The notes beneath the pieces are model-generated. The model searched no databases and was not told the DNA's origin. It saw only the letters and a program-made list of their open reading frames with translations. Below, in pieces: positions 42,054 through 63,400 of a stretch of 64,000 nt of DNA. This DNA comes from Nitrospinia bacterium (GTDB lineage: Bacteria; Nitrospinota; Nitrospinia; Nitrospinales; JAJDAT01). How positions within the stretch are numbered: the stretch's first letter is position 1; every line of letters begins with the position of its first letter. The DNA lies in assembly GCA_029261715.1 (NCBI GenBank), contig JAJDAT010000014.1:186001-250000 (forward strand), in the 5' to 3' direction. Position numbers and translations under genes: made by a program.

Positions 42054-43553
42054 TTAAGAGCCGACGGATTCTTTCTTAAACTCGATTTCAAGGAAATAAG
42101 GCTGGCTTTGGATTTCCATGTTTTGCTCAAACCAAAACTTCCCTTCCAGTAGGAAATCGATTTTTAAGTAAGCAATATCCTCGACTTTTGAATCGTCGGG
42201 AAAAGAAAACTCTTTCGAGAAAACGATAGTCTCTGCTGGCTTGAATTCTTTTTCAAAAAGAATTCTTCCAAGGTCACCCATCTCCTTTTTATCTCTATCC
42301 GCCATCTTAATTCCCAAACGAATTCCAGAATCTTCCGGCGAGGGAGGAATCGCTTCGGTAAAAACGTTTTGAACCGCCTCAACCTCCAACCGAAAAGGCT
42401 CTCCAAAACGAACTTCCCCAGAGACTACTTCCGCTCGGATAATTTGAGATTTCCTATTATCTTTGCCGCCTCGGGTCTTCTTTTCTTTTGGCTTCAAATC
42501 GTAATTATTAGGGGATAAATAAGCTGGCATAAAACCAAAATCGTCCACGCCAAGATCCCAGGCAAACTTTTCAATCTCTTCTTTACGATCCTCGTTAAAA
42601 TTAAAAATCAAAGTTTGCCATCGAATATGCGGAGTTTCGGAATTCATCTCCTTTTTTAGCCGAATCAACGTTTTTAACTGATCGATGACCCTGTTAGCGT
42701 CCCCACCTCTTCGATATTTCACATAAAGATCTTGTTCAACATCGTCTATCGCAACAATCAAGCGTGACAATCCAGATTTGATCAATCCTCTTAAAAATTC
42801 CTCGTCGAGCGGCATCGAAAAGTTTGAGGAGATCAACGTGATAATCCCGTATTTTTTTTCAGCGACTTCGATAATTTTTAAAATGTCTTTATGCAGTAAA
42901 GGGTCTCCATATCGAAATAGCTCCAAATAAAAAAGATAAGGACCTATCTCATCTAAAGTTTTTTCGTATGTTCCCCATTCCATCATACCTTGAGGTTGAT
43001 TGATTTCGCCCGTGCCAACCGCACATTCAGGGCACCTCAAATTACAAACATTTGCCGGATCTAAATTAGCGAGCATTGGGTAAGCGGTGATCTGAGATCG
43101 CCTGCCGTTAACTTCGCGAATCAATTTCATCAGGTTGATCAGCTTTCTTAAAACCATAACTGGAGCGACTTTGGATTTAAAAGCAACACAATCTCGAATG
43201 ATGTCCCTTATAAAAACTCTATCAAATCGCTGGTTAGGAGCCACCGGACAAGAAGCGCAACAATCATAAGCGCTTTCGGCATTGGGTATTTTCCCAGGAT
43301 TGGCCATGCGATCTAATAAATATTCTCTAGTGGAAGCAAAGAGTCCGCTTTTCCACGTATCTAATATAGTAGGTTCAGGCGGTTTCGGGTCCATTTGCGA
43401 AATTGCGCAGTTGCAAGGCTCTAACCGCCCATCTTGCAAGATGCTGGTCCTTAACCATAATTGTTCGCAATAAAAGTTTAACCGGCGAAACCGATAAGAT
43501 ATTCGAAAAAAACGATAAATAGCTCGAATGATTGGATTTAATAAACGGTGCAT
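42054..43553 (-). CDS. Radical SAM protein, paralog B, with N-terminal Cys module and C-terminal beta domain
   Basis: A 499-residue protein. An N-terminal cysteine module has C47-x-C49 and CCASC at 98-102, resembling a SPASM half placed ahead of the radical SAM core. The core has C170-x3-C174-x2-C177 (NVCNLRCPEC). The C-terminal 120 residues look like a beta-sandwich of the Wzt C-terminal kind (LEVEAVQNVF, GIRLGIKMAD, FWFEQNMEIQSQPYFLEI). It is 10 bases downstream of paralog A. The substrate is unknown. Linkage to glycan or surface modification is inferred from the beta domain. Confidence 0.8.
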   Translation of the reverse strand: MHRLLNPIIRAIYRFFRISYRFRRLNFYCEQLWLRTSILQDGRLEPCNCAISQMDPKPPEPTILDTWKSGLFASTREYLLDRMANPGKIPNAESAYDCCASCPVAPNQRFDRVFIRDIIRDCVAFKSKVAPVMVLRKLINLMKLIREVNGRRSQITAYPMLANLDPANVCNLRCPECAVGTGEINQPQGMMEWGTYEKTLDEIGPYLFYLELFRYGDPLLHKDILKIIEVAEKKYGIITLISSNFSMPLDEEFLRGLIKSGLSRLIVAIDDVEQDLYVKYRRGGDANRVIDQLKTLIRLKKEMNSETPHIRWQTLIFNFNEDRKEEIEKFAWDLGVDDFGFMPAYLSPNNYDLKPKEKKTRGGKDNRKSQIIRAEVVSGEVRFGEPFRLEVEAVQNVFTEAIPPSPEDSGIRLGIKMADRDKKEMGDLGRILFEKEFKPAETIVFSKEFSFPDDSKVEDIAYLKIDFLLEGKFWFEQNMEIQSQPYFLEIEFKKESVGS

Positions 43554-43563
43554 AAACTTTCTA

Positions 43564-45051
43564 TTAGTTGGAGGGATTGCCAGCGGAAACTTCTACCTCA
43601 GCCAATTCTTTAAACTTAACAGCCAGGTAATAAGGGTTACTTTGAATTTCTAAATTCTGTTCGAACCAAAAACGATTTTCAAAAACCAGATCGATTTTTA
43701 AATAAGCCACTCGATCAAGTTCCTCAACCTCGTCAAAACGCAGTCCCTTAGTAAGGCGTACCGTTTCGTCGGGTTGCAATGCTTTGTCAAAAAAGATCCT
43801 GCCGAAATCAGCGACTTCGCTTTTATTTTTATCAGCCAGTTTAATCCCGACTCGAATACCGCCAGTCTCGGAGGACGCCGGCATCTCTTCTCTAAACGCG
43901 TTCTGGATCACGTCAACAGTCAATTTGCACTCTGTTCCCAATTCAATATCCTGGCAATCCAATTCAGCTTTTTGAATCTGCGATTTTTTGTCAGAATGAT
44001 GACCGCGTAACTCGGTTTCTTTCGGCCTTAAATCGTAATTTTTCGGCGACAAATAAGCCGGTCGATAAGAAAATTTATCAACGCCTAAATCCATCACAAA
44101 CTTCTCAATAATTTCTTTCCGGTCTTCATTAAAGCTAAAAATCAAGGTTTGCCACCTAATGCTCGGGTGATGCGAATTCATTTCTTTGCGGATCTTGACC
44201 AACCGTTCCACATTATCGATCACCGTATGAACATTCCCGCTCACGCGATATTTTTCGTATAAATCTTGGTCGATATCGTCCGCCGCAACCACTAATTCCG
44301 ATAAACCCGACTCCACCACCCCGCGTAAAAACTCATCGGTCAATGGCATGGCAAAGTTAGACGAAATCGCCGTCATGATGCCGTATTTTTTTTCTGCTAA
44401 TCGGATCATCTTCAATATATCTGGGTTGAGCAGAGGTTCTCCATAACGGAACAACTCCGCGTAATAAAGTCCGTGACCAATTTCCCCCAATATCTTTTCA
44501 TAAACAAGAAAAGGCATAAAGCCGCGAGGATGCGGATGCTCGTCCGACCCAACACTGCATTCAAGACATCGGATATTGCATAAATTCGTCGCATCGATAT
44601 TGGCAATAACTGGTTTGGCGTCAACCGCTGAAACCCCCTTAGCGCCCGCATTGACCAACCTATTCAAATTCAAGAGTTTGCGAATCATCTGGCCGGGACG
44701 TCTTTTAAAGCGACGCAGCATGTTTTTCAAAATTGCATAATAATCTTCGCTACTTTGGAACCGTTGAGGTTCAGCCACCGGACAAGAAGCGCAGCAATCA
44801 AAAATGCTGGGGTCATCCGTGGGAATTTTCCCCGGAGCTTTCATGCCGTCGATCAAATATTGACGAGTCTTTTGAAACAGCGCATTGTTCCAAATCGATA
44901 AAATGGAAGCGTCGTTTCCTTGCGGTTCCATCTCGGAAATGGCACAACTGCAAGGTTCCATTCTCCCGTCCTGATGCAGGCTCACGCGAAACCACAAATG
45001 CTCGCAAAAAAAGTTTTTCTTTAGATATGGGTACAGTAGCAGCTTAAACAT
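43564..45051 (-). CDS. Radical SAM protein, paralog A, with N-terminal Cys module and C-terminal beta domain
   Basis: A 495-residue protein with the same domain order as its downstream neighbour. It has C34-x-C36 and CCASC at 86-90, then the radical SAM cluster C158-x3-C162-x2-C165 (NLCNIRCLEC). The C-terminal beta-sandwich-like part contains LTVDVIQNAF, GIRVGIKLAD and FWFEQNLEIQSNPYYLAV. The two proteins align along their full length. They probably arose by tandem duplication and may form a heterodimer or act on related substrates. Confidence 0.8.
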   Translation of the reverse strand: MFKLLLYPYLKKNFFCEHLWFRVSLHQDGRMEPCSCAISEMEPQGNDASILSIWNNALFQKTRQYLIDGMKAPGKIPTDDPSIFDCCASCPVAEPQRFQSSEDYYAILKNMLRRFKRRPGQMIRKLLNLNRLVNAGAKGVSAVDAKPVIANIDATNLCNIRCLECSVGSDEHPHPRGFMPFLVYEKILGEIGHGLYYAELFRYGEPLLNPDILKMIRLAEKKYGIMTAISSNFAMPLTDEFLRGVVESGLSELVVAADDIDQDLYEKYRVSGNVHTVIDNVERLVKIRKEMNSHHPSIRWQTLIFSFNEDRKEIIEKFVMDLGVDKFSYRPAYLSPKNYDLRPKETELRGHHSDKKSQIQKAELDCQDIELGTECKLTVDVIQNAFREEMPASSETGGIRVGIKLADKNKSEVADFGRIFFDKALQPDETVRLTKGLRFDEVEELDRVAYLKIDLVFENRFWFEQNLEIQSNPYYLAVKFKELAEVEVSAGNPSN

Positions 45052-45077
45052 GAAGGCATTGTATCAATTAAAGTATT

Positions 45078-45163
45078 GAACGCAAAGGCGAAAACCTTTG
45101 ACCCCCAAAACCGAGAACCTTAAAACATCTGAACCGCAGAGGACGCAGAGAGCGCAAAGAAAA
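45078..45163 (+). repeat. Dispersed GC-AGAG repeat, copy 1
   Basis: GAACGCAAAGGCGAAAACCTTTG at 45078-45100 (a short variant) is followed by the fuller copy at 45131-45163, GAACCGCAGAGGACGCAGAG plus AGCGCAAAGAAAAG. The fuller copy is perfectly inverted at 45345-45375. It lies between the radical SAM genes and tpsB. Confidence 0.85.
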
Positions 45164-45344
45164 GATTAAGGACAAGGTTTTAAATCTTACCTTTTGATAT
45201 TCAAAGATTTTAGGAATAGGGTTTTGCGATTTGATGGAGAAGAATACCTTGTAGTTCAAGAATTTGTTTTTTGCGGTAGCGCCCGTTGTTTTTTGTAGTT
45301 CAACAATTCAAGAGTTTGATTTTATCTTTCTTTGCTTTTTTGCC
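45164..45344. other. Spacer between inverted repeat copies
   Basis: These 181 bases carry no gene. They contain repeated GTAGTTCAA-(A/C)AATT segments at 45253 and 45295 and a T-rich strand. The unit formed by the two inverted copies and this spacer resembles a small non-coding element. Confidence 0.5.
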
Positions 45345-45375
45345 TTCTTTGCGCTCTCTGCGTCCTCTGCGGTTC
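45345..45375 (-). repeat. Dispersed repeat, inverted copy 2
   Basis: These 31 bases are the exact reverse complement of 45131-45161. The stretch after them to the tpsB start (45376-45529) holds no gene and presumably carries the tpsB promoter. Confidence 0.9.
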
Positions 45376-45529
45376 AAGGCTTCGTCTTTCCGCAAAGCCT
45401 ATTCCATTGATTAATATACCCTTGTTTCGACACACCTAAATGGTCTTATCGCCTGTTAAATGGCCGTGATATACTCTTTAGTTGCTTTAAAATGAACCTA
45501 TAAAAAATCTGAAAATCTACTAGGATCTT

Positions 45530-47266
45530 GTGAACTGCGCTGACTTCAGAAATTTAATTTTCCTATATTTTTTAAGGAAAAATCTTCGGTCGCTCCTTAT
45601 TTTAGGATTGTCGATACTCGTTTTCTATTCTCATTTTGGCAACGCCGAAGCCCAAACTATTCCCAACCAAGTTTTACCTGATCGGTTTGAAAAACGATTC
45701 GAAGATCCTCCGCTCGATCCTAAATTTAAAAATAAACTCAAACTGCCAAAATTAAAACAACCCAAGCTAGATCCTAAATTGGATATGTTCCGGTTCATTC
45801 TTAAAGACATCCTCATAGAAGGCAGTACCGTCTATAAAAAAGGCGACTTTTTTTCGCTTTATAAAAATCTCCTAAACAAAGAAGTTTCGATGGGGGATGT
45901 TTATAGACTCGCCGCAGACTTCACCGCCAAATATCGCAACGAAGGCTATATCCTATCCAAAGTCACGGTGCCTCCACAACGTATCGAGAAAGGGTTGATC
46001 CGCGTCAAAGTCGTCGAGGGCTATATCAGTAAAATCAATATCAAAGGGGACGCCACCGATTCCGACAGACTCTTAAAAAAATTCGGCAAAAAAATACGCC
46101 GATCGCGTCCGCTGAAAGCCACAGTTTTAGAACGCTACACCCTGTTGGCCAACGATTTACCCGGACTGCGAGTCAAATCCGTACTCTCTCCATCGAAAAA
46201 GAAAAAAGGCGCTTCGGAACTTACCTTCCTGGTAAAACATCAAGTTTTGGAAGGCAGTGTCGGTCTGGATAATCGCGGTTCCAAGTTTAGCGGTCCGATG
46301 GTGGGCTCTCTCAGCGTGAAAGAAAATTCGGCTCTCGGTTTGGCGGAATCCACGGAAGTCCTTGCCACCTCCTCAACTCAAACCGATGAAGTTATTTATG
46401 CGAAAGTCACGCACACAGAACCTTTAGGGTTCGACGGCGCAAAATTTCAATTATCGGGAAGTCTCAGTTTGTCTGAACCCGGGCACACCCTCAAAGAGTT
46501 CGAAGTGAAAGGGAAAAGCAAAGTCGTCAGCGCATTGATCACGCATCCGTGGATCCGCACCCGCGAAGAAAACCTGACCTCCTTCTTTGGGTTCACCGCC
46601 CTGAACTCGAAAACCGACGTTTTGGGAGAACAGAGTTCAAGAGATCGCTTACGCAGTATCTACTTGCGGACCGGCTACGATTGGGTGGACAGTTTTGGCG
46701 GCGTCAACCTGATTAATTTTGAATTGCGCCGGGGCTTTAATCTGCTTGACGCCACTAAAACGGGAACCGCCGATCTCACTCGTTCCAGAGGCGAAAGCGA
46801 TTTCTCCAAAATTTCCGGCGGACTCACTCGGCTGCAATACCTGGCGCCACGCTGGATGTTTTTCGCTTCCAGCGCCTGGCAATACTCCTTCAGCCACCTC
46901 TTAGCTTCCGAAGAGTTCACCGTCGGCGGCTCCGTCTTCGGACGCGGTTACGACTTTTCAGAAATCTCAGGCGACCACGGTTTGAGCGCGAAAGCCGAAT
47001 TGCGGTTCGCACAGTCGTTGCGCATGAAATACTTTCGCGACCTGCAATACTACGTCTTCTTGGATTATGGTTCTGTTTGGGAAAAAGGCCCCGAAGCCGG
47101 CACAGATGCTCAGCAATCCATTGTCACCACTGGCGGCGGCGCTCGCTACAACCTCACACAAAATCTCTCAGGTTACTTTGAGCTGGCTAAACCTCTTGCC
47201 GCTCGCGTTGAAGCCGAGGACCACAAACACTTTCGATTATTTTTTAAGGTGTTTTATCGGTACTAA
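45530..47266 (+). CDS. Two-partner secretion outer-membrane transporter (TpsB, FhaC/ShlB type)
   Basis: A 578-residue protein starting with GTG. A signal peptide ends near residue 42 (LLILGLSILVFYSHFGNAEA). Two POTRA domains follow at about 85-230 (ILIEGSTVYKKGDFF; VVEGYISKINIKGD). A 16-stranded barrel comes next, with the GRGYDFSEISGDHGLSAKAE loop-6 motif near residue 468 and a C-terminal aromatic residue (FYRY). It should export the giant TpsA encoded 1.2 kb downstream. The two genes are separated by repeats and a GxxExxY gene, which is unusual for a TPS pair. Confidence 0.93.
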   Translation: MNCADFRNLIFLYFLRKNLRSLLILGLSILVFYSHFGNAEAQTIPNQVLPDRFEKRFEDPPLDPKFKNKLKLPKLKQPKLDPKLDMFRFILKDILIEGSTVYKKGDFFSLYKNLLNKEVSMGDVYRLAADFTAKYRNEGYILSKVTVPPQRIEKGLIRVKVVEGYISKINIKGDATDSDRLLKKFGKKIRRSRPLKATVLERYTLLANDLPGLRVKSVLSPSKKKKGASELTFLVKHQVLEGSVGLDNRGSKFSGPMVGSLSVKENSALGLAESTEVLATSSTQTDEVIYAKVTHTEPLGFDGAKFQLSGSLSLSEPGHTLKEFEVKGKSKVVSALITHPWIRTREENLTSFFGFTALNSKTDVLGEQSSRDRLRSIYLRTGYDWVDSFGGVNLINFELRRGFNLLDATKTGTADLTRSRGESDFSKISGGLTRLQYLAPRWMFFASSAWQYSFSHLLASEEFTVGGSVFGRGYDFSEISGDHGLSAKAELRFAQSLRMKYFRDLQYYVFLDYGSVWEKGPEAGTDAQQSIVTTGGGARYNLTQNLSGYFELAKPLAARVEAEDHKHFRLFFKVFYRY

Positions 47267-47280
47267 ATTCCTAAATACTT

Positions 47281-47425
47281 GAACCGCAGAGAGTACAAAG
47301 AAAAGCCAAACAAGTTCCTTATGGTAAAAGCAAAAACCATAGAGGCAGAAACCAAAAATCCTTGAACCGCAAAGGCGAAAACCTTTGAACCGCAGAGAGC
47401 GCAGAGAACGCTAAGAAAGACAAAA
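47281..47425 (+). repeat. Dispersed repeat, cluster of direct copies 3
   Basis: Three degenerate copies lie in tandem: GAACCGCAGAGAGTACAAAG at 47281, GAACCGCAAAGGCGAAAACC at 47364 and GAACCGCAGAGAGCGCAGAG at 47387 running on to 47420. The last is nearest to the consensus. They sit between tpsB and the GxxExxY gene. Confidence 0.85.
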
Positions 47426-47507
47426 CAAGTTCTAAAAGTAAAAGATGAAAACCTTTAAGTTAAATAACAACAAAGCCCATAAAGGTGACACAACAAAGGA
47501 TACAAAG

Positions 47508-47885
47508 ATGAATGAAAACGAATTGTCCCATAAAATAATAGGGGCTTGTATTGAAGTTCACCGTACTCTTGGACCAGGGCTGTTAGAAAATGTCTACCAG
47601 CAATGTTTAACGCGCGAATTTGGATTGCAAAGCATTCCCTTCGAAAAAGAAATAGCCAAACCGATCTCTTATAAAAACAGGCTAATTGAATGTGGTCTTC
47701 GTTTGGATTTTTTTGTAGATAATCGGGTTATTGTTGAGCTCAAAGCTGTTGAAAAACTGCTGCCCATTCATAAAGCTCAGGTCTTAACCTACCTAAAACT
47801 TACTGGTTGCAAGTTGGGCCTTTTGATAAATTTTAATGTTCCAATACTTAAGGATGGGATTGAACGTCTTGCTCTAGACCTTTAA
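47508..47885 (+). CDS. GxxExxY family protein (PD-(D/E)XK-like)
   Basis: From ATG 47508, preceded by AAAGGA, the protein has 125 residues: MNENELSHKIIGACIEVHR and then TLGPGLLENVYQQCL, which holds the G-x-x-E-x-x-Y motif. 'GLRLDFFVDNRVIVELKAVEKL' shows the D-x(n)-E-x-K core of a PD-(D/E)XK nuclease fold, so a nuclease function is likely but unproven. An upstream ATG at 47445 would add a repeat-derived stretch (AHKGDTTKDTK). The gene is bracketed by copies of the dispersed repeat, direct on the left and both orientations on the right. Confidence 0.9.
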   Translation: MNENELSHKIIGACIEVHRTLGPGLLENVYQQCLTREFGLQSIPFEKEIAKPISYKNRLIECGLRLDFFVDNRVIVELKAVEKLLPIHKAQVLTYLKLTGCKLGLLINFNVPILKDGIERLALDL

Positions 47886-47903
47886 TTCTTAAACATAACC
47901 TTG

Positions 47904-47936
47904 GAACCGCAGAGAGCGCAGAGAACGCAAAGAAAG
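47904..47936 (+). repeat. Dispersed repeat, direct copy 4
   Basis: GAACCGCAGAGAGCGCAGAG followed by AACGCAAAGAAAG lies 19 bases after the GxxExxY stop. The copy at 48132-48162 is its inverted complement. Confidence 0.9.
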
Positions 47937-48130
47937 ATAAAAATAAATTCCTAAGAAAATGCAAAAACCAAACTCTTGAATTCTTGAAGGGTAAAAACTA
48001 AAAAACAATACCGCAAAAACGAAATTTTTGAACTGCCAGACATCCCCCCAACAAAAGAAATAACTAAACTAATTGTTAATTTTATTGCAATTCTAAATAA
48101 CTAAATTAACGCCTTGCTTTTTTTCTTTTG
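47937..48130. other. Spacer between inverted repeat copies 4 and 5
   Basis: These 194 A+T-rich bases hold no gene. Length and layout match the spacer between copies 1 and 2 (about 183 bases), which points to a repeated element of defined size. Confidence 0.5.
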
Positions 48131-48173
48131 CCTTCTTTGCGTTCTCTGCGCTCTCTGCGGTTCAAAGGTTTTC
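48131..48173 (-). repeat. Dispersed repeat, inverted copy 5
   Basis: CTTCTTTGCGTTCTCTGCGC followed by TCTCTGCGGTTCAAAGGTTTT is the reverse complement of the direct copies. It marks the right edge of the repeat cluster before the tpsA leader. Confidence 0.9.
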
Positions 48174-48485
48174 GGTTTTGCGTTTCCCTAATCCCCTCAA
48201 AATGTTCCTTCTCCAAAAATTCCTACACAAAAACAACCCCACACCCTTTAAACACATTGAATTTCCATCTCTTATAAAGTTTTTCTCTTCCGAAATATCA
48301 GAAATTTCTGATACAATGATTGTTACAAAATTGAAACATTCTATGTATAGATTTAGTTTCGGCAATCATAGTTATTTTGAGAGGGCAAAAGAACTATTGA
48401 GTAACAGCTAGGCTTCAATAGCCATTTTGGCACACAAAATGACACTAAGATAAAGATTGAGCAGTTTGCTTCATTTTTTCGTCTT
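48174..48485 (+). promoter_or_regulatory. Leader of the giant tpsA gene
   Basis: No convincing gene is present; a 77-codon + frame at 48178-48411 lacks family features. TATCAGAAATTTCTGATA at 48296-48313 is a perfect 18-bp palindrome, a likely operator. A weak promoter-like pair, TTGTTA near 48322 and TATGTA about 16 bases on, follows it. Confidence 0.4.
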
Positions 48486-51400
48486 ATGTCCAAATTTCAT
48501 AAAAGATACAACCTGGTCGCGCATCTGCTGATTTTCTTGCAGATCGTTTGTCCGACCTACCTGTTTGCGCTACCCACCGACGGCCAAGTCGTTGCCGGCG
48601 ACGCTGTTATTCAACAGACCTCCCCCAACGAATTGGTCATCCAGCAGTCGTCCGATAAAACCATCGTCAACTGGCAAGACTTTTCGATTCAATCCCACGA
48701 AGGAGTCGAGTTCAAACAACCGTCCAGCAGTTCCACCGCTCTCAACCGAGTTCAAGGTTCCAAAGTCAGCGAAATTCTCGGCAGACTCTCCGCGAACGGC
48801 AATATATTTTTAATCAATCCCAACGGCATTATCTTCGGTCAATCATCTCGTGTCGATGTCAACGGTCTGGTCGCCTCCACCAGCGATATCCACGACAACG
48901 ATTTCATGGCGGGTCGCTATAATTTCAATATCCCGTCTCCTAAAAACGCGTTTGTAATCAATAAAGGTCAAATCACCGCTTCCGAAGCCGGACTGGTCGC
49001 GCTAGTCGCGCCAGGTGTCGACAACTCGGGCGTCATCCAAGCAAAACTGGGAAAAGTCACACTCGCTTCAGGCGATGTGTTTACGGTCGACCTCTATGGC
49101 GACGAACTGATCCAACTGGAAGTCGATAGCGAAGTCGCGCAACAAGTCATCGGTCCAGACGGAACTCCGCTCGAAGCGCTGGTCAATAACAGCGGCGAGA
49201 TTTATGCCGAGGCGGGCACGGTCATACTGGAAGCGCAAGCAGCCAGAGGCATCGTCGACCGCGTGATCAATAACGACGGCGTCATCGAAGTCCAATCCAT
49301 CGATAACGACAATGGCGTGATCGTGCTTCGAGGCGGCGACGAGGGCGAGGTTCGTGTCGCGGGAACTCTAGACGCTTCGGGATTTGAAGAAGGAGAAGAA
49401 GGCGGCACGATTCATATTCTCGGTAACGAAGTGAATTTAGATGGCGCTCAAGTCAACGCTTCCGGCGACGCTGGCGGCGGCACGGTTTTAGTGGGCGGCG
49501 ATCAACAAGGCCAAAACCCAAACATTCAAAACGCCCAAAACACGACGGTGTCGGAATCGTCTTCGATTCAAACCGACGCCATAAACAAAGGCGATGGCGG
49601 CAAGATCATCATCTGGTCGGAAAACTCAACCAAAGTATATGCTTCCCTATCTGCCACCGGAGGTAACTCCGAAGGGGATGGCGGGTTCGTTGAAACTTCC
49701 GGTAAGAAGTTTTTAGACGTCACAAAAGCTCCCATCGTTTCGGCTCCTAATGGCAAAGCCGGTACCTGGTTACTCGATCCGACCAATATCGAAATCGTCA
49801 GCGGTCCGGGCAACGGCGACGGGTCGCAAGTTTCGGTAAAGACTATTGAAACTGCATTGAACGCCGGTACCAGCGTTCACATTATCACCAGCGGTCAAGG
49901 GTTGAAAAAAGGAACCATCACCGTTTCAACGGCGATCTTAAAATCGTCGGGCGGCGACACATCGCTGACGCTGACTGCACATGGCGATATCGTGATCAAC
50001 GACACGATCACTTCCACCAACGGAACTTTGGACATCAACCTGATTGCCGGAGCGGATATTTTTGTCACCGCAGCGATCAGTACCAACGGCGGATTGGTGA
50101 TGGCCGACGCCGGGTCGATCGATCCACCGGCTAATATTTCGGGATCTTACACTCCAGCGGCGCGTATTTGCGGATCGAATGGCGCTTTGCCTAAAATCGA
50201 AATCAATGCCGACATCACAACCAACGGCGGCGCGGTTTCGTTGGGACAATTTAAAACCAAACAACATTCTTTGATCGGTGGCGGAACCTACACCAAAGAC
50301 AAACACGCAGTCACGGACGTGACCGTACAAACCGCTTCGATCAATACCGGCGGCGGCGATTTCACCATCAACGGTTCTGCAATCCTAGTCGCTTCCACGG
50401 CAACCGTCACTTCTCCCAGCGGTAACATCGCCATTGAAGGCGGAGATGAAACCCTGGTTTTTGTTGCCGGTATGCTAAACGCAGCTAACTTAATGGCAGG
50501 ACAAGTTGGCGGATCGATCCATGTATTGGGATATCAAGTCGGCCTGTTCGATAGCGCCATACTCGACGCCTCTGGCGACGCTGGCGGCGGAACGATTTTG
50601 ATCGGCGGCGATTTCCAGGGCAAAAACGAAAACATACGTAACGCTTATCAAACTTATGTCGGAACCAACGTAACGATCAACGCCGACGCTATCAACACCG
50701 GCAATGGCGGCAAAGTCATCGTTTGGGCAGACGACGTCACGCGATATTTCGGAACCATCAACGCGCGCGGCGGCGCGACATCCGGCGACGGCGGATTCGT
50801 CGAAGTCTCCGGAAAAGAAAATTTAGCGTTCGCGGGGAACGTTCAATATGGGGCGACCAATGGACAAGGCGGTACGCTGCTTCTCGACCCTAATACCTTG
50901 ACCGTTCAGGCCGGCGTCGGAACGGAAAACGATTTGGTGGGAACCACCGGCAACGACGCTAACGCCACCACCCTGGCGTTCGGAGAATTTGATACCGATA
51001 CCGCCACAATCCAGGATACGGTGATTGAAGCTTTGTTGGCGGTCGATGGAAACACCGTTATCCTGCAAGCCGACCTTGATATTACCGTCAGTACCGCTAT
51101 CAATGGCGGCGGTGGCGGCGATTTAACCCTGGAGGCCGGACGCACCATCACTGTCAACGCGGCTATCATCCTGGACGGCGACGGAATTTTAACCCTTAGC
51201 GCCGCTGACCCCGGATCTCCAACAACGTCAGGGACCGGGCAGATTTTACTTAATAATAACCTGACCACAGCCACCGGCAATATCACGCTTACTACCAATA
51301 GCAATACCGCCAATACTGCCATTACTGTTGGAGGGACAAACGCCACCATTACTACCACCACCGGCGCGGTGACGATTAACAGTCCAATTTATACGTTGGA

Positions 51401-54400
51401 CGCTTCGGTCAATGGTTTGACCATAAACACATCAGGAGACGCTGGCGTATCTGCGACCTCCGGGGAAGTGACGCTAACCAGCGCGGTCTTATTGGAAGAC
51501 AGAGTAACCATCAACACGGCTAATGGAAGCAACGGCGGCGATATCAACATTGCTGGAAATTTTACCGGAAACGACGCAGGCCAAAAACTCGTGACCTTTA
51601 GCGTCGGTTCTTCCGGAACCATCAACGTGACTGCCGCGCGGCTTGGTAATTTCAACAATAGCAGTAGCACCACAGATAGAAACCTGCGTCTGAGCGAAGT
51701 TCAATTTAACGGAGCCACAGTTCTCAATGGCACCGACATTTATACCCGGGGTACTACGATTCAGATTCTGGGCAATTTGACGATTACGACAGGAACCGTT
51801 CTTCTGGATACAAGGCGGCAATCCGGTCAGGAAGCCGCTATCACTTTATCGGGTGCCATCGATGGCGCCCAGACTCTGCAACTTGACGGTTCCGCGGTTA
51901 CCTTTGGCGGTAACATTGGTTCGACCACCGCTTTGACAGGGCTCGCTACTATTTCCACTCCAGCCACCTTGCAGGGGATTTCTATCCGCACCGCTGGAGG
52001 AGCGATTACATTCCAGGGAGTCACATTAAACACTGGCGCGGTTTCTATCGACGCTACCAACGGCGGCGGTTCTGCGGCGGGCGGCAACATCACGTTTTCC
52101 AGTAATGTCAACGGAGCGCAGAGTTTAACCATTAACACCGGAACGGGAGGAACGTTCTCGGCAACCAACATTGGAAATTCCACGGCGCTGACCGGGTTGA
52201 GCGTAACATCCGGTCAAGACATCACTCAAACCAATGCCTGGATTTCCAGCGGCACGGCCGTCTTCACCACCAACGCCAACAGCTCCAATATCACATTAAC
52301 CAACGCCAGCAACAACTTCTCGGGTACGTTGAGTTTGAACACCAACGGCGCCGGCAACGCCACCGTGGATAATGGTAGTAACGCCCTCGATCTGGCGGCC
52401 TCGACGGTGGGCGGCAGCTTGGCGATCACCGCCGGGGGCGCGATCAGCGACAGCGGAGTTCTAGCCATAACAGGAACATCATCATTCACCACGGACGTCG
52501 ACGATATTACGATCACGTTGGATCAAGCCAGTACGTTTACGGGAGCGATGACCTTGACCACGCAAACAGCGGGCGGCAACACGGCGAACGTTTCGATCAC
52601 TAACCTTGCGGCCGACATGACCCTGGCGGCCTCCACCGTGGCTGGCAACCTTACGATCAGCGGCGCAAGCATTACCGTATCCGGGGCGATTGCCGGGTCT
52701 GGCTTTATCACTCTGGATGCCAATGGAACCAACGCCGACGTAAATCTCAACGCCGCATTGACCGCCGGGTCGGGCAGCGCCGTGACAATCACCGCCGACG
52801 ACTCAATAACCGCTATGGCTGCAGGCGATATTACCGCCAGCGGCGCGGGCGCGATTTCCGTTACGGCCAACACCAACACCTCGAACGGCAATGACGACGA
52901 CGATATCGTAATGGCCGACGGCACATTGTGGGATGCGGGTACCGGCACGATCTCGGTCATCACAACAGGGGCCAATTCGGGCGACATAACCATTGGCGGA
53001 TTGTTGACCCTGAACAACACTGCCACTGCCGTCACCGTCACGACCGATCCTTCCAGCGGTTCGGGTGTCATCAACGACGCTGGAGATATCGATATCGATA
53101 TTGTCGCCGCTTCCGGTGGCCTGTTGATAGACGGCCGCGGCATCGGTAATGGAGGGGGAGATGACACTCTTGAAACCACTATCGCCAGCATCGACCTTGA
53201 TAACCTGAACTCGGGCAATGTGAGAATTGCTGAAACCGATGCCATCACAATCACTAAATTAAATCAAGCCGCCAGTACGGGAACTCTTTTATTAACCGCC
53301 GGAGGAACCATTACCGTCTCTGGCGCCGTGACCTGGAATGCAGGCGGCACCACCCTGACAGCGACCGGACAAAACTCGGATATCCTGGTCAACGCGGCGT
53401 TGAGCAATTCCGGTTCGGGAGGCGGCCTCAATCTCAACGCCGCCGACAGTGTCATCTTCGCGGCGGCGGGAGATATAACTATAGATATTGCCGCAAATAA
53501 TCTAAACATCACAGCCAATACCGACAACTTGAGCGGAGATAGCTTCAACGTCATCACCATGGACAATGACACGTTGATCAGCGCTACAGCCGGGTTCATT
53601 AATCTAGTAAATTCCGGAGCCAACGGCGGAAACATCACCCTCGGCGGCGTGACCAACAGCACCGGGAATGTGACCATAAGCACCGCTGCCAGTATCATAG
53701 ATGGCGGAGATATGTTTGTGGACGTTGTCACAACCAGCGGAACCCTGACCATCAACGCGGTTTCGGGTGTCGGTTCAGCGGCAGGCGCCGGAGCGGACAC
53801 GGCATTAGAAATCACCGTGGGTTCGCTGGACGTCGACAACACCGGTTCGAATAACGTCCTTCTAGACGAAACGGATGGGATCAACATCGTCAACCTGAAC
53901 ACCAGTTCCGCCAATGGAGATATCACGGTAACCGCAGCGGGAACCATTAATTTGACCGCCGACGGGGCTATCGCCGCCGGTAACGGAGCTGTGTCCCTAA
54001 CCGCTTCGTCGGGATCGATTGAAGATACTGCCGGAACGGGTAACGCAAAAATCACCACAACGGGCGCTATCAGCTTGACCGCTTCGGCAGGGGTCGGGCA
54101 ATCCGCTGTTCTAGAAATCACCAGTTCTTCCAACCTGACGGTGAACGCCAATCAAAGCATTCAAGTTGCCAGCTCGACGACGTTGACCGATTTGACACTA
54201 ACACTCGATCCAGGATCGACGGCAGACACCTACACCATCATCGATGGCGGCAACTTGACGCTTAGCTTAACGGACTCCGGAACCGCAACCGACATCGGCG
54301 GAATTTCGCTTGCGGCGGGGAATTTAAATTTTACGTTGACGACAGACACGGGCGCGGTAACCACTTCCGGGAACATCGATATCAACTCCGGAAATTTTTC

Positions 54401-57400
54401 CGTCACCACCACAGACGGCAGCCAAACTTACTCCAATACCATCGACGCTAACAACGTGACGTTGAACGCCGACGGTACGAACTCGGACGTCAACCTGCAA
54501 GCCGCGATCACGACGGCTTCGGGCGGTGTGGTGACGATCACCGCCGACGACTCGGTTATTGCGACGGCAACCGGCGACATCACCTCCAGCGGCGCCGGAG
54601 CGCTTTCCGTCACGGCCAATACCAACACGTCGAACGGAGATACCGGGGATGTCATCACCATGGCGGACGGCACGGTGTGGAATGCGGGCAGTGGCACGAT
54701 CACGTTAACCCTGACAGGAACCAACTCGGGCAGCATCACCATCGGTAGCGTGTCGACCACAAACGCCACAGCCACCGCCGTTACCCTCACGACCGGCATT
54801 GGTCAGATTGTCGATGCCGGCGAAATCGATGTAGATATCGTCGCGGCGAGCGGCGGCCTGGTGATAGACTCCGCCGCTGGGGTTGGTATCACCGGGAACA
54901 TTTTCATAGAAACCACGGTTGCCAGTATCGATCTCGACAACAATGGCGGCAATGCAAGAATCGATGAAACGGACGCAATTAGCGTCACCAAATTGAATAA
55001 TACTGGCTCAACGCTCGTCTTAAGAGCTTCAGGAACCATCACCATCACCGCTGGGCAATCCGGCGTCACCTGGGGTGTAGGCTCTACCCAAATTACGGCG
55101 CTCGGGCAAAACTCGGATATCCTGGTCAATGCGGCGTTGAGTAATTCGGGTTCGGGAACCAGCCTCAATATCAATGCGGCCGACAGCGTCATCTTCGGCG
55201 CTGCGGGAGATATTACCGTAGACAATAATTCGATTTCCATCTCCTCCAACACCGACAACTTGAGCGGCGACTCCGGTAACGTCATCACCATGAATGACGA
55301 CACGTTGATCAACGCCACCGGCAGCACGATCCTCTTGCAATCCGGCGGCTCCAACGCGGGCGATATCACGCTCGGCGGATTGACGACGACAAACGCCACC
55401 GCTTCGGCCATCACGGTGAACGCTGGTTTCGGCAATGCCATCATCGACGGCGGAGTTACTCATGTCGATGCCGTCGCGACGTCGGGGACGATCACCTTGA
55501 TCGGCTCGGCGGGCATCGGCTCGGCGGGTTCCATTGACGTCAACACGGCGGTACTGGTTGTCGATTCGAATGGAGATATCCTGGTCAACAGTTCCACGAC
55601 GTTAACGGATTTGACGATCACACTCGAACCGGGGTCGGCAGCGGAAACCTACACCATCACCGACGGCGGAAACTTAACGCTTAGCTTGACGGATAGCGGA
55701 ACGGATCTCGATATCGGCGGAATTTCTCTTTCGGCGGGGAATATGAATTTCACGTTGACGACAGACACCGGAGCAGTGACCACTTCCGGAAATATCGACA
55801 TCAACTCCGGTAACTTTTCGGTTACCACGACGGCGGGAAGCCAAACCTATTCCAACACCATCGACGCCAACGACGTCACATTGGACGCGAATGGACAGAA
55901 TTCGGATTTGACCTTTAATGCGGCGATCACCACCGTCTCCGGCGGCGCCGTAACGTTGACCGCCGATGATAGCATTTTATTCTCAGCGATCTCATCAGAT
56001 ATTACCAGTAACGGCGCGGGAAATATGTCGATCACCGCAAACACCGCCACCACGAACGGCGACAGCGGCGACGTGATCACGATGGTGAATGGCGTTGAGA
56101 TCAGTTCGGGTTCCGGAACCATGACGGTGACCTCGACCGGGGCGAACGCAGGCGATATCACCATCGGCCGGTTAATCTCCAGCAACGCCACGAGTTCCGC
56201 GATAACGGTCACCGCAGGTTTGGGCGCTGTCCTGGACGGGAACACGACGACCCAAAATTTTGTCTTAACCACCACTGGTGGCGTGGTGATAGACGCCGCC
56301 ACCGGTGTCGGGACCTCCGGCGAAGCCCTGGAACTCACGGCGACTTCGGTGGATGTCGATAATACGACTTCAGGCGGAATCTTTTTAACCGAAGCAGACA
56401 GCATCAACATCGTTAAATTAAACTCAAGTTCCACCAATGGAGATATCACGATTTCGGCGGCAGGTACGATCAATATCACCGTCGACGGCGCCATCGCCGC
56501 CGGAAGCGGCAACGTTTCCATCACCGCCTCGGCAGGGTCCATTGAAGACACCGCCGGAACGGGTAACGCAAAGATCACCACGACCGGAACGATCAGTTTG
56601 ACCGCTTCGGCAGGTGTTGGGCAGTCTGCCGTGTTGGAAATCGCCAGTTCCGCGAACCTGACGGTAGACGCAAACCAAAGTATCCAAATCTCAAGTTCCA
56701 CAGCCTTGACCGATCTGACACTCACAGTCAATCCCAGCGTTCTGACCGACGCAACCTATTCCATCGCAGCGTCCAATTTTTCAACCTTCACGTTAACGGA
56801 CAATGGTTCGAACGTAGAACTGGGTCAGGTCGCTTTGTCATCGGGAAGTTTGAATTTAAGTCTGACCACCGATTCCGGGAATTTGGATATCGGGACCGCT
56901 GGAACGGTCAATACGGGTACGTCAGGAAATCTAACAATCGTTTCGGCTGGAAACATTACAGACACCAACGCGATTTCCGTAACCGGCACGTCAAGTTTTA
57001 CCGTAACCGGCACGAACATCATCACCTTGGACAATGCTAGCAACGCCTTCTCCGGCGCGATCACTTTGGCATCCGGAACCGGGGCGGTACAATTGACCAA
57101 CAGTACGGCGACTTCTCTGGCGGCTTCCACTTTAGGCGGAGCTTTGACCGTGACTTCTAGCGGCGCCATCACCCAAACAGGAATATTAGATGTAACGGGA
57201 AACGCCAGCTTCACCACAAACGTCAACAATCAAGCGATTACATTAAGCAACCCTGGCAACGCTTTCAGAGGAACCCTCGCCTTCACAACACAGGGGACCA
57301 CTGGCAACGTCGTCATTGACAACGGCAACACCAACTTACAATTGGCGGCATCCACCATTCAAGGGACATTCTCGGCAAGAGCCGGAGGAACCATTACTCA

Positions 57401-60400
57401 GACCGGAGCTTTGACCGTTGACAGCACGGCTAGTTTTCAAACAGATGTCGACGATAGAGTTATTACCTTGAGTCAAACAAACGCTATTGCTGGAGCGATT
57501 ACACTCAATACCCAGACCACGGCAAGTCACGCTGGTCACGTCACGATCAATAATGGCACGACCAATTTAATTTTAGCCGCATCCAATATTGCCGGAACTT
57601 TGGACGCCACCGTCTCCGGAACAATCACTGATACTGGCGCTCTCGTAGTAAACAGCGTAGCGACGTTTGCGGCAGGAGCTGGAAACAATATCACCTTAGA
57701 CACAGGAACCAACAACTTTAGTACCGTAGTTATCACTACCGGCAACGACGTAACGCTAGTCGATACCAACTCGATCATTTTGGGCGCATCGACTGTATCC
57801 GGAACTTTGGGAGTTACGGTTTCCGGAACGATTACGGAATCTGGAGTGTTAGCCGTAACAAACACCGCAACGTTTGATTCCGGTGGAACCAACGCGACCG
57901 CAAATGCGATCACCTTAAATAGCAACACGCATAACTTCAGCACAATTGCAATTACTCAAGGCGGGAATGTTTTGGTGGCAGACTCCAACGGAATTATCTT
58001 GGGAGCGTCAACCGTATCGGGAATTCTGGGCGTAACAGCGGCAGGTAGCATCACCAATTCTGGAGATTTAGCGGTAACGGGTGTTGGAACATTCACGGTA
58101 GGAAACACTCAGTCGATTACTCTAAATAGCACTGGGAATAACTTTACCGCAACCCCGGTATTTCTCGCCAGCGGTGGAACCATTGCTAATGTTACGATTA
58201 CAGACACAACAGCGCTAGCCTTTGGAGCTCTAACCTTAACCGGAAATTTGACGATCACTTCCGGTGGAGCTGTCACACAAACCGGAGCGCTTGTAGTTCC
58301 CGGAACCACAACCATCTCCGCTAGCGGTCAGAATGTAACCTTTAATAATTCATCAAATAATTTTGGAACGATCGGAGTCACTGGAGTCATTGTTGCGATT
58401 CAAGACACCAACTCCGTTATCCTGGGAGCTTCAACAGTATCAGGAACTTTAGGCGTCACCGCTTCTGGTACGATCACTCAGTCCGGAGTGTTGGCAATAA
58501 CCGGAGCGGCGACCTTTGATGCAGGCGGAACAAACGCCACGATCAACGCAATCACCTTAAACACCAGCTCCAACAATTTCAGCACAGTCGTTATCACACA
58601 GGGCGGAAACGTTTTGGTAGACGACTCTAATGGAATCATCTTAGGAACTTCTACAGTATCCGGAACTTTGGGCGTCACCGCTTCTGGAACAATCACTCAG
58701 TCCGGCGTGTTAGCGGTAACCGGAGCGGCAACCTTTGACGCGGGAGGAACCAACGCAACCGCTAACGCGATCACCTTAAATACCAGCTCCAATAACTTCA
58801 GTACATTTGCCGTAACACAGGGCGGAAATATTTTGGTAGACGACTCCAATGGAATCATTCTAGGAGCGTCGACCGTCTCCGGAACTTTGGGCGTCACCGC
58901 TTCTGGAACAATCACTCAGTCCGGCGTGTTAGCCGTTACCGGAGCCGCAACGTTTGACGCGGGCGGAACCAATGTCACAACCAACGCAATCACTTTAAAC
59001 ACCAGTTCCAATAACTTCAGTACCATTGTCGTCACACAGGGTGGAAACGTTTTGATAGACGACTCTAACGGAATCATACTCGGGGCTTCAACCGTTTCCG
59101 GAATCTTGGGAGTTACGGCTTCTGGAACCATTACCCAGTCCGGTGTGTTAGCAGTCACTGGAGCGGCAACTTTTGATTCTGGCGGCACCAACGCCACAGC
59201 TAACGCGATCACCTTAAACACTAGTTCCAACAACTTCAGTACATTCGCCGTTACGCAAGGCGGAAACGCTTTGGTAGACGACTCGAACGGAATCATCTTA
59301 GGAGCTTCTACCGTATCCGGAACTTTAGGCATTACGGCTTCTGGAACCATCACTCAGTCCGGCGTATTAGCGGTAACCGGAGCGGCAACCTTTGACGCGG
59401 GAGGGACAAATGCTACCGCTAACGCGATCACCTTAAACACTAGTTCCAATAACTTCAGTACTTTTGCCGTCACGCAGGGCGGAAACGTACTGGTAGACGA
59501 CTCCAATGGAATCATTTTAGGAGCGTCGACCGTCTCCGGAACTTTAGGCGTTACCGCATCAGGGACTATTACCCAATCTGGAGTGTTAGCCATAACAAAC
59601 GCCGCGACCTTTGATTCAGGCGGAACCAACGCCACAACTAACGCTATCACTTTAAACACCAGTTCCAATAATTTCAGCACAGTGGTGATCACACAAGGCG
59701 GAAACGTTTTGGTAGACGACTCTAACGGAATCATCTTAGGAGCCTCAACCATTTCCGGAACTTTAGGCGTTACCGCATCAGGGACTATTACCCAATCTGG
59801 AGTGATAGCCATAACAAACGCCGCGACCTTTGATTCAGGCGGAACCAACGCCACAACTAACGCAATCACTTTAAATACCAGCGCCAACAACTTCAGTACA
59901 TTTGCCATCACACAGGGCGGAAACGTTTTAGTAGACGACTCCAATGGCATCATCCTTGGAACGTCTACGATTTCCGGAACCTTAGGAGTTACGGCTTCCG
60001 GAACCATCACTCAGTCAGGAGTGTTAGCGATCACTGGAGCTGCAACGTTTGGCGCAGGTGGAACAAATGCAACCGCTAACGCAATCACCTTAAACACCAG
60101 TTCCAATAACTTCAGCACAATCGTTATCACGCAAGGCGGGAATGTATTGGTAGACGACTCCAACGGAATCATATTAGGAACATCCACCGTATCCGGAACC
60201 CTGGGAGTTACGGCTTCTGGAACGATCACCCAATCTGGAGTGTTAGCGATAACAAACACCACGACCTTTGATTCTGGCGGAACCAACGCCACTGCCAACG
60301 CAATTACCTTAAATACCAGTTCCAATAGCTTCAGCACAGTCGTCATCACACAGGGCGGAAACGTTTTGGTAGACGACTCCAATGGAATCATCTTAGGAGC

Positions 60401-63400
60401 CTCAACCATTTCCGGAACTTTAGGCCTTACGGCTTCTGGAACGATCACTCAGTCCGGCGTTTTAGCGGTAACTGGAGCGGCGACCTTTGACGCTGGCGGA
60501 ACTAACGCTACAACCAACGCAATCACTTTAAACACAAGTTCTAACAATTTCAGTACATTTGCCGTCACACAGGGCGGAAACGTGTTGGTAGACGACTCCA
60601 ATGAAATCATTTTAGGAGCTTCCACTATTTCCGGAACCTTGGGAGTTACGGCTTCTGGAACGATCACCCAATCTGGAGTGTTAGCCGTAACAAACACCGC
60701 GACCTTTGATTCTGGCGGAACCAACGCCACAGCTAACGCAATCACCCTAAACACCAGTTCCAATAACTTCAGCACAATCGTTATCACGCAAGGCGGAAAC
60801 GTGTTGGTAGACGACTCCAACGGAATCATCTTAGGAGCGTCGACGATTTCTGGAACCTTGGGAGTTACAGCCTCAGGAACCATCACCCAGTCAGAGGTTC
60901 AGGCAGTCACCGGAGCTGCAACGTTTGACGCGGGAGGAACAAACGCAACCGCTAACGCGATCACCTTAAACACCAGCGCCAACAACTTCAGCACAGTCGT
61001 CATCACACAGAGCGGAAACGTTTTAGTAGACGACTCTAATGGTATTATTTTAGGAGCGTCGACGATTTCTGGAACCTTGGGGGTTACGGCTTCTGGGACG
61101 ATCACTCAGTCTGGCGTGTTAGCAGTTACCGGAGCGGTAACGTTTGACGCGGGAGGAACTAACGCTACCGCTAACGCCATTACTTTAAACACCAGTTCCA
61201 ACAACTTCAGTACAGTCGTCATCACACAGAGCGGAAACGTTTTGGTAGACGACTCTAATGGTATTATTTTAGGAGCGTCGACGATTTCTGGAACCTTGGG
61301 AGTTACGGCTTCCGGAACCATTACCCAATCTGGAGTGTTAGCGGTAACTGGAGCGGCGACCTTTGACGCTGGCGGAACCAACGCCACAGCTGACGCGATC
61401 ACCTTAAACACCAGCGCCAACAACTTTAGTACTTTTGCCGTGACACAAGGCGGGAACGTTTTAGTAGACGACTCTAACGGAATTATTTTAGGAGCCTCAA
61501 CAATATCCGGAACCTTAGGCGTAACGTCATCTGGAACGATTACTGAATCTGGAGTACTCGCAGTAACTGGAACCGCAACGTTTGATTCTGGCGGCACTAA
61601 CGCAACCGCTAACGCAATCACCTTAAACACCAGTTCCAACAATTTCAGCACAGTCGTCATCACACAGGGCGGAAACGTTTTAATAGACGACTCTAACGGA
61701 ATCATTTTAGGAGCGTCAACAATATCCGGAGCCTTAGGCGTCACCGCTTCTGGAACGATCACCCAATCTGGAGTGTTAGCGATAACAAACACCGCGACCT
61801 TTGATTCTGGCGGAACCAACGCCACTGCCAACGCAATTACCTTAAATACCAGCTCCAATAGCTTCAACACAGTCGTCATCACACAGGGCGGGAATGTATT
61901 GGTCTCTGATTCTAACGGAATCATTTTAGGAGCTTCAATAGTATCCGGAACCTTGGGAGTTACGGCTTCAGGAACAATTACTCAATCTGGAGTTCTCACG
62001 ATCACCGGGGCGGCAACCTTTGATTCCGGCGGAACAAACGCAACCGCTAACGCGATTACTTTAAATACCAGTTCCAACAACTTCAACACATTTGCCGTGA
62101 CACAGGGCGGAAACGTATTGGTCGCGGACTCTAACGGAATTATCTTGGGAGCGTCCACAATTTCCGGAACCTTGAGCGTAACAGCATCCGGGACGATTAC
62201 CGAGTCTGGAGTTCTCGCAGTAACTGGAACCGCTACATTTGATTCCGGCGGAACCAACGCCACAGCAAACGCCATCACCTTAAACACCAGTACCAATAAT
62301 TTTAGTACGGTATCGATCACACAGGGCGGTAACGTAGCGCTAGCAGATTCGAATGCCATCATCCTCGGCGCGTCTACCGTATCAGGAACTTTGGGCGTAA
62401 CGGCGGGCGGCACGATCACAGACAGCGGAGCTATTGCTGTGACAGGAGCTGCCGCTTTTACCACAAATATTGACGACCGATCCATCATTTTAAATAACGT
62501 CAACGCGCTTGGCGGAGCGATTACTTTTACAACGCAAACAACCGGCGGCACGAACGGCGCTAACATCGTATTGAATAACGGCAATACAGCGATCAACCTG
62601 GCGGCGTTTACGACAGAAGGGAATCTCACGCTGGAAACCACGGCAGCGATAGCCTTGGCTGGACATACGGTCAATGGCAATCTTTCGGTAACAAGCGGTA
62701 ACGCCATCACCCAAACGGCTGCGCTGACGGTTTCGGGAACGTCAACTTTCACAACCAATACTCTTAATAAAGTGATCACGCTGAGTACCGCGACCAATGC
62801 TCTGACTGGCGCGGTGGCCTTCAACACTTTGGGTACGACGGCTAACGTTGTGATCGATAACGGTTCCACAAACTTGGGACTAGCGGCATCCACCGTGCGC
62901 GGTAATTTAACGGTAACGACCACAGGTAACTTATTAGTGAGCGGAGATCAGTCATCAACGGGCGCGGTTTCTTTGACTTCCGGAGCCGATATGAACGTCA
63001 ACGCTAAGATCAATACCACTGCGGGCAACATCATTCTATCGGCCGTTAACGACGTTATTTTCACGGCTCCAGGCGATGTGACCAGCGTAACTGGAGACGT
63101 TACGGTCATAGCAGACAGCGACAACGGCGGCGTGGCGAGCGGCGCGTTGACCATGGCTGCGGGAACTGCAATTGACGCCGGATCGGGCAAGATCGCGCTC
63201 AGCGCAGATGAAGACATTACTTTAGGAAAACTGACTACAACTGACAACTCGTTGACGGCGGTGACATTGACTTCTACTGAAGGCGGTATCGTGGAAGGCG
63301 GAGTGATTGGAACCTGTGGCGGCGGCATTAGCGCGGGATGTAACATCGTCGCTTCTGATGGTCGATTGGTCATCGACGCAGTCACGGGAATTGGCGATGC

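Follow-up and report, generated by a model that had tools for sequence, protein, structure and literature searches.

A GxxExxY nuclease gene between inverted repeat arrays as a candidate compact mobile element

Introduction

The window analysed here is a 64,000-nucleotide stretch of a contig from a Nitrospinia bacterium, in which a small gene of the GxxExxY family sits among copies of a short dispersed repeat. This raises the question of whether the gene and the repeats belong together, and if they do, what moves them. A sequence-only reading of the locus had proposed that the GxxExxY protein acts on the repeats, or spreads with them, in a partnership like that of REP elements and RAYT enzymes. 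We find it well supported by sequence comparison that gene and repeats spread together. We also think it probable, if only modestly so, that the gene and its flanking inverted arrays make up one compact mobile element, similar in design to REPINs and RAYTs but with an unrelated enzyme that, we infer, recognises and cuts the arms.

Results and discussion

The repeat cluster in the window

Seven copies of GAACCGCAGAG with at most one mismatch lie in the window, at 45131+, 45365-, 47281+, 47364+, 47387+, 47904+ and 48153-, in line with the earlier count of at least seven. Matches to the 16-mer number 11 in the window and 0-1 in each of 20 resampled windows. Over the entire genome of 5.3 Mb, with at most three mismatches allowed, the 20-mer is found at 14 sites, 10 of them within one 20-kb stretch around the window's GxxExxY gene, and the reversed control at 0. 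Because of the excess of 16-mer matches and the complete lack of reversed-pattern matches genome-wide, chance is ruled out as the cause of the cluster. The repeat itself is built of ~9-bp units arranged in tandem (CGCAGAGAG CGCAGAGAA CGCAAAGAA), and the sequence of the unit varies between elements; the repeat that had been pointed out is real and clustered, but its sequence is only one flavour among many. Rfam gave no match above the gathering score within 44800-48800. The features of the locus are as follows.

45130 to 45376, no strand assigned: gene-less inverted unit W1, with arms at 45130-45161 and 45345-45376 and a non-coding interior
47279 to 47302, plus strand: degenerate repeat array GAACCGCAGAGAGTACAAAG
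47364 to 47424, plus strand: left inverted arm of the GxxExxY unit (CCGCAAAGGCG... GAACCGCAGAGAGCGCAGAGAACGCTAAGAAAG)
47467 to 47507, plus strand: decayed array resembling the repeat (CATAAAGG..ACAACAAAGG ATACAAAG), which the alternative N-terminus translates
47508 to 47885, plus strand: GxxExxY (PDDEXK_3) nuclease gene, encoding 125 aa when read from the preferred start; the ORF can open at 47445
47897 to 47947, plus strand: left arm of gene-less inverted unit W2
48120 to 48186, minus strand: right arm common to W2 and the GxxExxY unit

The left arm of the GxxExxY unit pairs with 48126-48186 over 61 nt at 89% (score 93, against a shuffled maximum of 21), and the intact gene lies between these two arms, which agrees with its proposed place inside the cluster. 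The two inverted pairs with similar spacers that the same reading described are also there. In W1 the arms are 32 nt long, 100% complementary and 183 nt apart, with a predicted ssDNA hairpin at a z of -8.7; in W2 (47897-47947 / 48120-48170) they match over 51 nt at 88% and are 172 nt apart over these longer arms. The interior of W1 is homologous to that of W2, in inverted orientation.

The GxxExxY protein

The ORF at 47445-47885 encodes a full-length PF13366/TIGR04256 protein (E 6e-43 and 2e-44; 150.5 bits against a cut-off of 35, and 146.3 against 22), and PF13366 is its sole Pfam match. Our preferred start is the ATG at 47508, right behind the decayed array, where close relatives begin in the alignment. 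The alternative N-terminus reads through that array (GCCCATAAAGGTGACACAACAAAGGATACAAAG), as had been suspected from its repeat-like translation. The motifs G24xxE27xxY30, D67, E77xK79 and Q91xxxY95, which we take to be a RecB/Cas4-type active site, are intact in the window protein and conserved among 65 aligned sequences, with D67, E77 and K79 invariant or nearly so.

The AlphaFold2 model has a mean pLDDT of 96.6 and carries the conserved D and ExK on a nuclease core. Foldseek matched it to viral PD-(D/E)XK nucleases (TM 0.73-0.79), and the best PDB match was Sulfolobus SSO0001 (Cas4), 4ic1, with a probability of 0.92-0.99 and an E-value of only 0.01-0.04. No solved relative turned up when the PDB was searched by sequence. 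The protein models confidently as a predicted RecB/Cas4-like PD-(D/E)XK nuclease, so the resemblance to such nucleases that the earlier reading stated is now backed by the motifs in 65 sequences and by the fold. In PADLOC the protein resembled Cas4 and a DRT-associated nuclease model only weakly, and given this weakness we did not adopt a defence role. A search of phages and viral contigs returned no relative, and a phage vector is therefore unsupported.

Four copies in one genome

The window's gene is one of four GxxExxY genes in this genome (G000, 5.33 Mb), and all four lie inside inverted arrays. The copies on C14 (the window) and C51 are flanked by CGCAGAG-type arrays and those on C5 and C16 by CACAGAA-type arrays, and these two flavours match two protein subclades; identity to the window protein is 85% for the C51 copy and only 37% for the C16 copy. 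One internal stop interrupts the C5 gene. The C16 copy escaped the automated arm search (score 25), but CACAGAA-type arms can be made out there by eye; a different palindrome, ACTTCGACAGAGCTTGTGCTGAGCTTGTCGAAGT, splits the left one (L016 9130-9215), so that one repeat sits inside another.

Inverted arms across phyla

Among 100 relatives, 27 carry the GxxExxY family, with many truncated copies and with inverted arrays on the flanks. For a scan across phyla we used one genome per species and a tighter alignment, since the diverse alignment was too loose. This gave 80 named loci, 77 of them testable, from Chloroflexota, Acidobacteriota, Planctomycetota, Verrucomicrobiota, Cyanobacteriota, Bacteroidota, several proteobacterial classes, Spirochaetota, Cloacimonadota, an archaeal Methanothrix bin and others. 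At 59 of the 77 loci the left flank matched the reverse complement of the right flank above the 99th percentile of distant-position controls.

In an enlarged set, a locus's own left and right flanks scored at least 30 at 101 of 133 loci, against 17 of 142 when the right flank came from another GxxExxY copy in the same genome and 154 of 1717 when it came from another genome. The low same-genome control rules out base composition and host lineage as the cause. A partnership between gene and repeat predicts enrichment of the repeat near GxxExxY genes, and the comparison of own with mismatched same-genome flanks shows such enrichment to be strong. No clear arms were seen within 260 bp at 32 of the 133 loci. 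Unit types include CGCAGAG, CGCAAAG, CACAGAG, CGCCGAT, CACAGATGAA and ACAGGAT, at a spacing of 8-10 bp, and the right arm often begins no more than about 25 bp past the end of the coding match. On a Treponema saccharophilum plasmid (L132 2900-3400) the GxxExxY gene adjoins a Fic-family gene and has a divergent inverted end, ACACGGATTCG, without clear tandem units.

Gene-less derivatives and empty sites

Inverted pairs also occur with no gene between them. A Gemmatirosa kalamazoonensis plasmid has 49 sites that form 20 inward-facing pairs, with units mostly of 70-200 bp; some hairpins are nested in the loop of a hairpin of another flavour, and one GxxExxY gene has a complete hairpin on either side. 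In G000, W1, W2 and C14:250142-250394 have common interiors. C14:251339-251594 contains collinear blocks from both ends of a GxxExxY gene (score 79.7, where the null reached at most 65.6) and, judged by this alignment, is an internal-deletion derivative of the element. The predicted ssDNA hairpins are far stronger than those of shuffles.

Occupied and empty versions of one site were found in three groups, in comparisons made between species rather than between the close strains that had been suggested. In G024 the element lies between two conserved neighbours, and the same place is a gap of 8-33 bp in six congeners (G039, G026, G001, G016, G049 and G032). In Sphingomonas parapaucimobilis it parts fabD from fabG, where S. 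paeninsulae has about 35 bp, and in Bacteroides finegoldii it follows radA, where Parabacteroides has about 13 bp. We looked for target-site duplications in 100 elements, and the longest flanking match had a mean of 3.77 against 3.62 in permutations (p 0.085). Because no target duplication was detected, the exact ends of the element are uncertain.

Gene and arms thus occur and vary as a unit, are present or absent at syntenic intergenic sites, and degrade internally to gene-less pairs. The part of the original proposal that has the gene spreading with the repeats draws its support from the empty sites, the internally deleted copy and the gene-less pairs. The same three observations speak against taking the arrays as ordinary operators or terminators of an immobile host gene such as a defence nuclease, which we consider very improbable. 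Hairpins next to a gene can terminate transcription, and the weak PADLOC similarity would suit such a gene; against this, the arrays flank both sides in mirror orientation, and no defence neighbourhood was seen at annotated plasmid loci.

Arms, protein and genomes

The two arms of one element stay matched while they diverge from other copies, which is to say that they evolve in concert. When proteins had a score ratio of 0.6-0.75, an element's own arms scored 44.5 against 24 for the arms of its relative (763 of 810 pairs); the loci had been pre-selected for arms, which inflates the own score, and the gap is still large. The type of unit also follows the protein. When unit classes are mapped onto a tree of 101 proteins, 11 changes are needed; shuffles need 22.4 on average, and 0 of 200 come as low. 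Arm similarity also correlates with protein similarity (Mantel rho 0.52, permutation maximum 0.18). Within genomes alone (37 pairs) the correlation is positive and non-significant (rho 0.26, p 0.12), and on this point we rely on the tree. Lineage does not explain the clustering of unit classes, because G068, G064 and others have members of more than one class in one genome. Co-inheritance of the whole element is enough to produce the tree result, which does not by itself prove that the protein recognises the arms.

Across the 100 genomes, sites of the pattern ACCRCRRAGRCRCRRAG were found in 21 of the 27 that carry the gene and in 7 of the 73 that lack it (Fisher p 1e-10), or by genus in 16 of 20 and 3 of 27 (p 2e-6). 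It is much rarer where the gene is lacking, and the proposed pairing of gene and repeat stands on this point as well. The reversed control of the pattern has four matches in 100 genomes, and several genomes have dozens to about 180 pattern sites. Two phyla considered for a larger sample comprise only 3 and 8 genomes, and in the first of them all 3 genomes carry both gene and pattern.

The pattern also occurs in seven genomes where no GxxExxY gene was detected, and four of the seven have a four-helix gene (discussed below). One could therefore imagine independent dispersed repeats moved by another enzyme (a RAYT, an insertion sequence or the four-helix protein), with GxxExxY carried between two copies in the style of a composite transposon, as the Gemmatirosa gene between two complete hairpins might also suggest. 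We find this quite improbable, since the arms are element-specific and track the protein even in genomes with several types, the right arm often lies so close to the coding match, and one deletion derivative keeps both gene ends. The same-genome control (17 of 142) strains it further. In G022, G033, G067 and G071 there are 11-28 pattern sites with no detected GxxExxY gene, and three of the four have the four-helix gene; these sites are possibly relics or the result of trans-mobilisation.

A parallel in the S23/IVP family

The four-helix S23/IVP protein (PF05635, 23S_rRNA_IVP) is unrelated to GxxExxY, yet its loci have the same anatomy outside rRNA. In the same relatives, 51 of 60 such loci (L278-L297, L308-L347) have matched inverted arrays of element-private 7-8 bp units, with 8 of 262 in the same-genome mismatched control. 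The two families co-occur, the four-helix gene being present in 18 of 27 genomes with GxxExxY and 12 of 73 without (p 3e-6). In 23S rRNA, S23p intervening sequences have inverted repeats at their borders and are cut out by RNase III, and they hold a single small ORF and are suspected to be selfish elements (PMC4990558).

Because an unrelated non-nuclease family shares the anatomy, architecture alone is no proof that the nuclease makes the arrays. The parallel also keeps alive an RNA-level explanation, in which selection would keep the arms complementary for pairing in the transcript, as in the S23p sequences cut by RNase III. The ORF would ride along as cargo, and an insertion into an operon would be harmless thanks to its matched arms. 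The concerted arms and the S23p anatomy outside rRNA fit this, and some copies do lie inside operons in the same orientation. However, for pairing alone tandem 8-10 bp units would be unnecessary and no link between unit type and protein clade would arise, short gene-less hairpins spread by themselves, and the predicted fold is of a DNA-nuclease type. We believe it to be an unlikely explanation, though one that deserves some weight.

The parallel suggests a wider class of single-gene cassettes. There may be a broad undescribed class of bacterial selfish cassettes, each with one small gene between element-private inverted arrays of 7-10 bp units. The proteins that run them would include at least a PD-(D/E)XK nuclease and, unrelated to it, a four-helix bundle, and the arms would be actively kept matched while the unit drifts fast between copies. 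We lean neither for nor against this broader proposal.

How the element might move

For GxxExxY we prefer a mobile element of roughly 0.45-0.8 kb, whose ends would be the mirror-image arms, made of two to four tandem ~9-bp units, and whose only protein would be the nuclease. The nuclease would recognise its own arms, probably paired as an ssDNA hairpin or brought together as duplex, cut at the ends and start copying into a new intergenic site. Gene-less pairs could be moved in trans by the same nuclease.

Comparison with known systems

According to the published description, a RAYT gene always has an inverted pair of REPs at its sides (PMC2817692), and REPINs are gene-less inverted REP doublets (PMC3116915). 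The element resembles REP/REPIN and RAYT (TnpA_REP) in having a gene between inverted short repeats and gene-less inverted doublets in intergenic DNA, in a repeat type that follows the enzyme, and in the lack of a larger target duplication (PMC2817692, PMC3116915). Its flanking inverted repeats are, as in that system, also dispersed in the genome. The enzymes differ: a RAYT is an HUH/Y1 tyrosine enzyme, whereas GxxExxY is predicted to be a PD-(D/E)XK nuclease, and Pfam gave PF13366 only and no IS200/IS605-type transposase (Transposase_17, with its catalytic tyrosine). The repeats differ as well, because a REP is a palindrome with a GTAG-type head and the GxxExxY arm consists of tandem 8-10 bp units without such a head, each arm pairing with the opposite one. 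GxxExxY units also have a wide phylum range and few full copies per genome. On account of the enzyme we file the element as REP/RAYT-like and not as a RAYT; of the partnership first proposed, the flanking, dispersed repeats hold up and the enzyme and the REP palindrome do not.

Like S23p/IVP (PMC4990558), the element has a single small ORF between inverted terminal repeats, but the protein family is another one, the sites are intergenic and not in rRNA helices, and RNA excision is known for S23p. Like MITEs and their parent insertion sequences it has short, internally deleted derivatives with common terminal inverted repeats; unlike them it has no DDE transposase and no detected target duplication, and its ends are iterated units. 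The modelled fold and the motif order E-D-ExK-QxxxY are those of Cas4/RecB-type nucleases, but GxxExxY is a minimal single domain of 125 aa that lies within its own repeats and not beside cas genes. In open-access full text we found no account of GxxExxY or PF13366 with repeats, nor the typical repeat strings; two papers name GxxExxY, neither of them in connection with repeats, and one unrelated paper names PF13366. As far as open-access text shows, the combination of GxxExxY and repeat arrays is apparently undescribed so far.

The proposal offers a hypothesis at the level of function for a protein family so far defined by its motif alone, and it accounts for a class of dispersed repeats that is common in environmental genomes. 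If it is true, the enzyme behind this mobile element would be a bare PD-(D/E)XK nuclease rather than one of the DDE, HUH, serine or tyrosine type. As both arms drift rapidly and stay matched, protein-DNA co-evolution and the origin of new repeat units can be tested directly, and the four-helix parallel may bear on the origin of S23-encoding rRNA intervening sequences.

Neighbouring genes

The window's GxxExxY unit lies between the genes of a two-partner secretion pair. TpsB (ShlB, POTRA_2) is at 45530-47266, and a giant TpsA adhesin with a TPS domain is at 48486-63998, where the open frame of 5171 aa runs off the window; repeat units are found before, between and after these two genes. At 42054-45051 a pair of radical SAM proteins, each of about 500 aa, is encoded side by side on the minus strand; their sequences are similar, and they are probably a tandem duplication.
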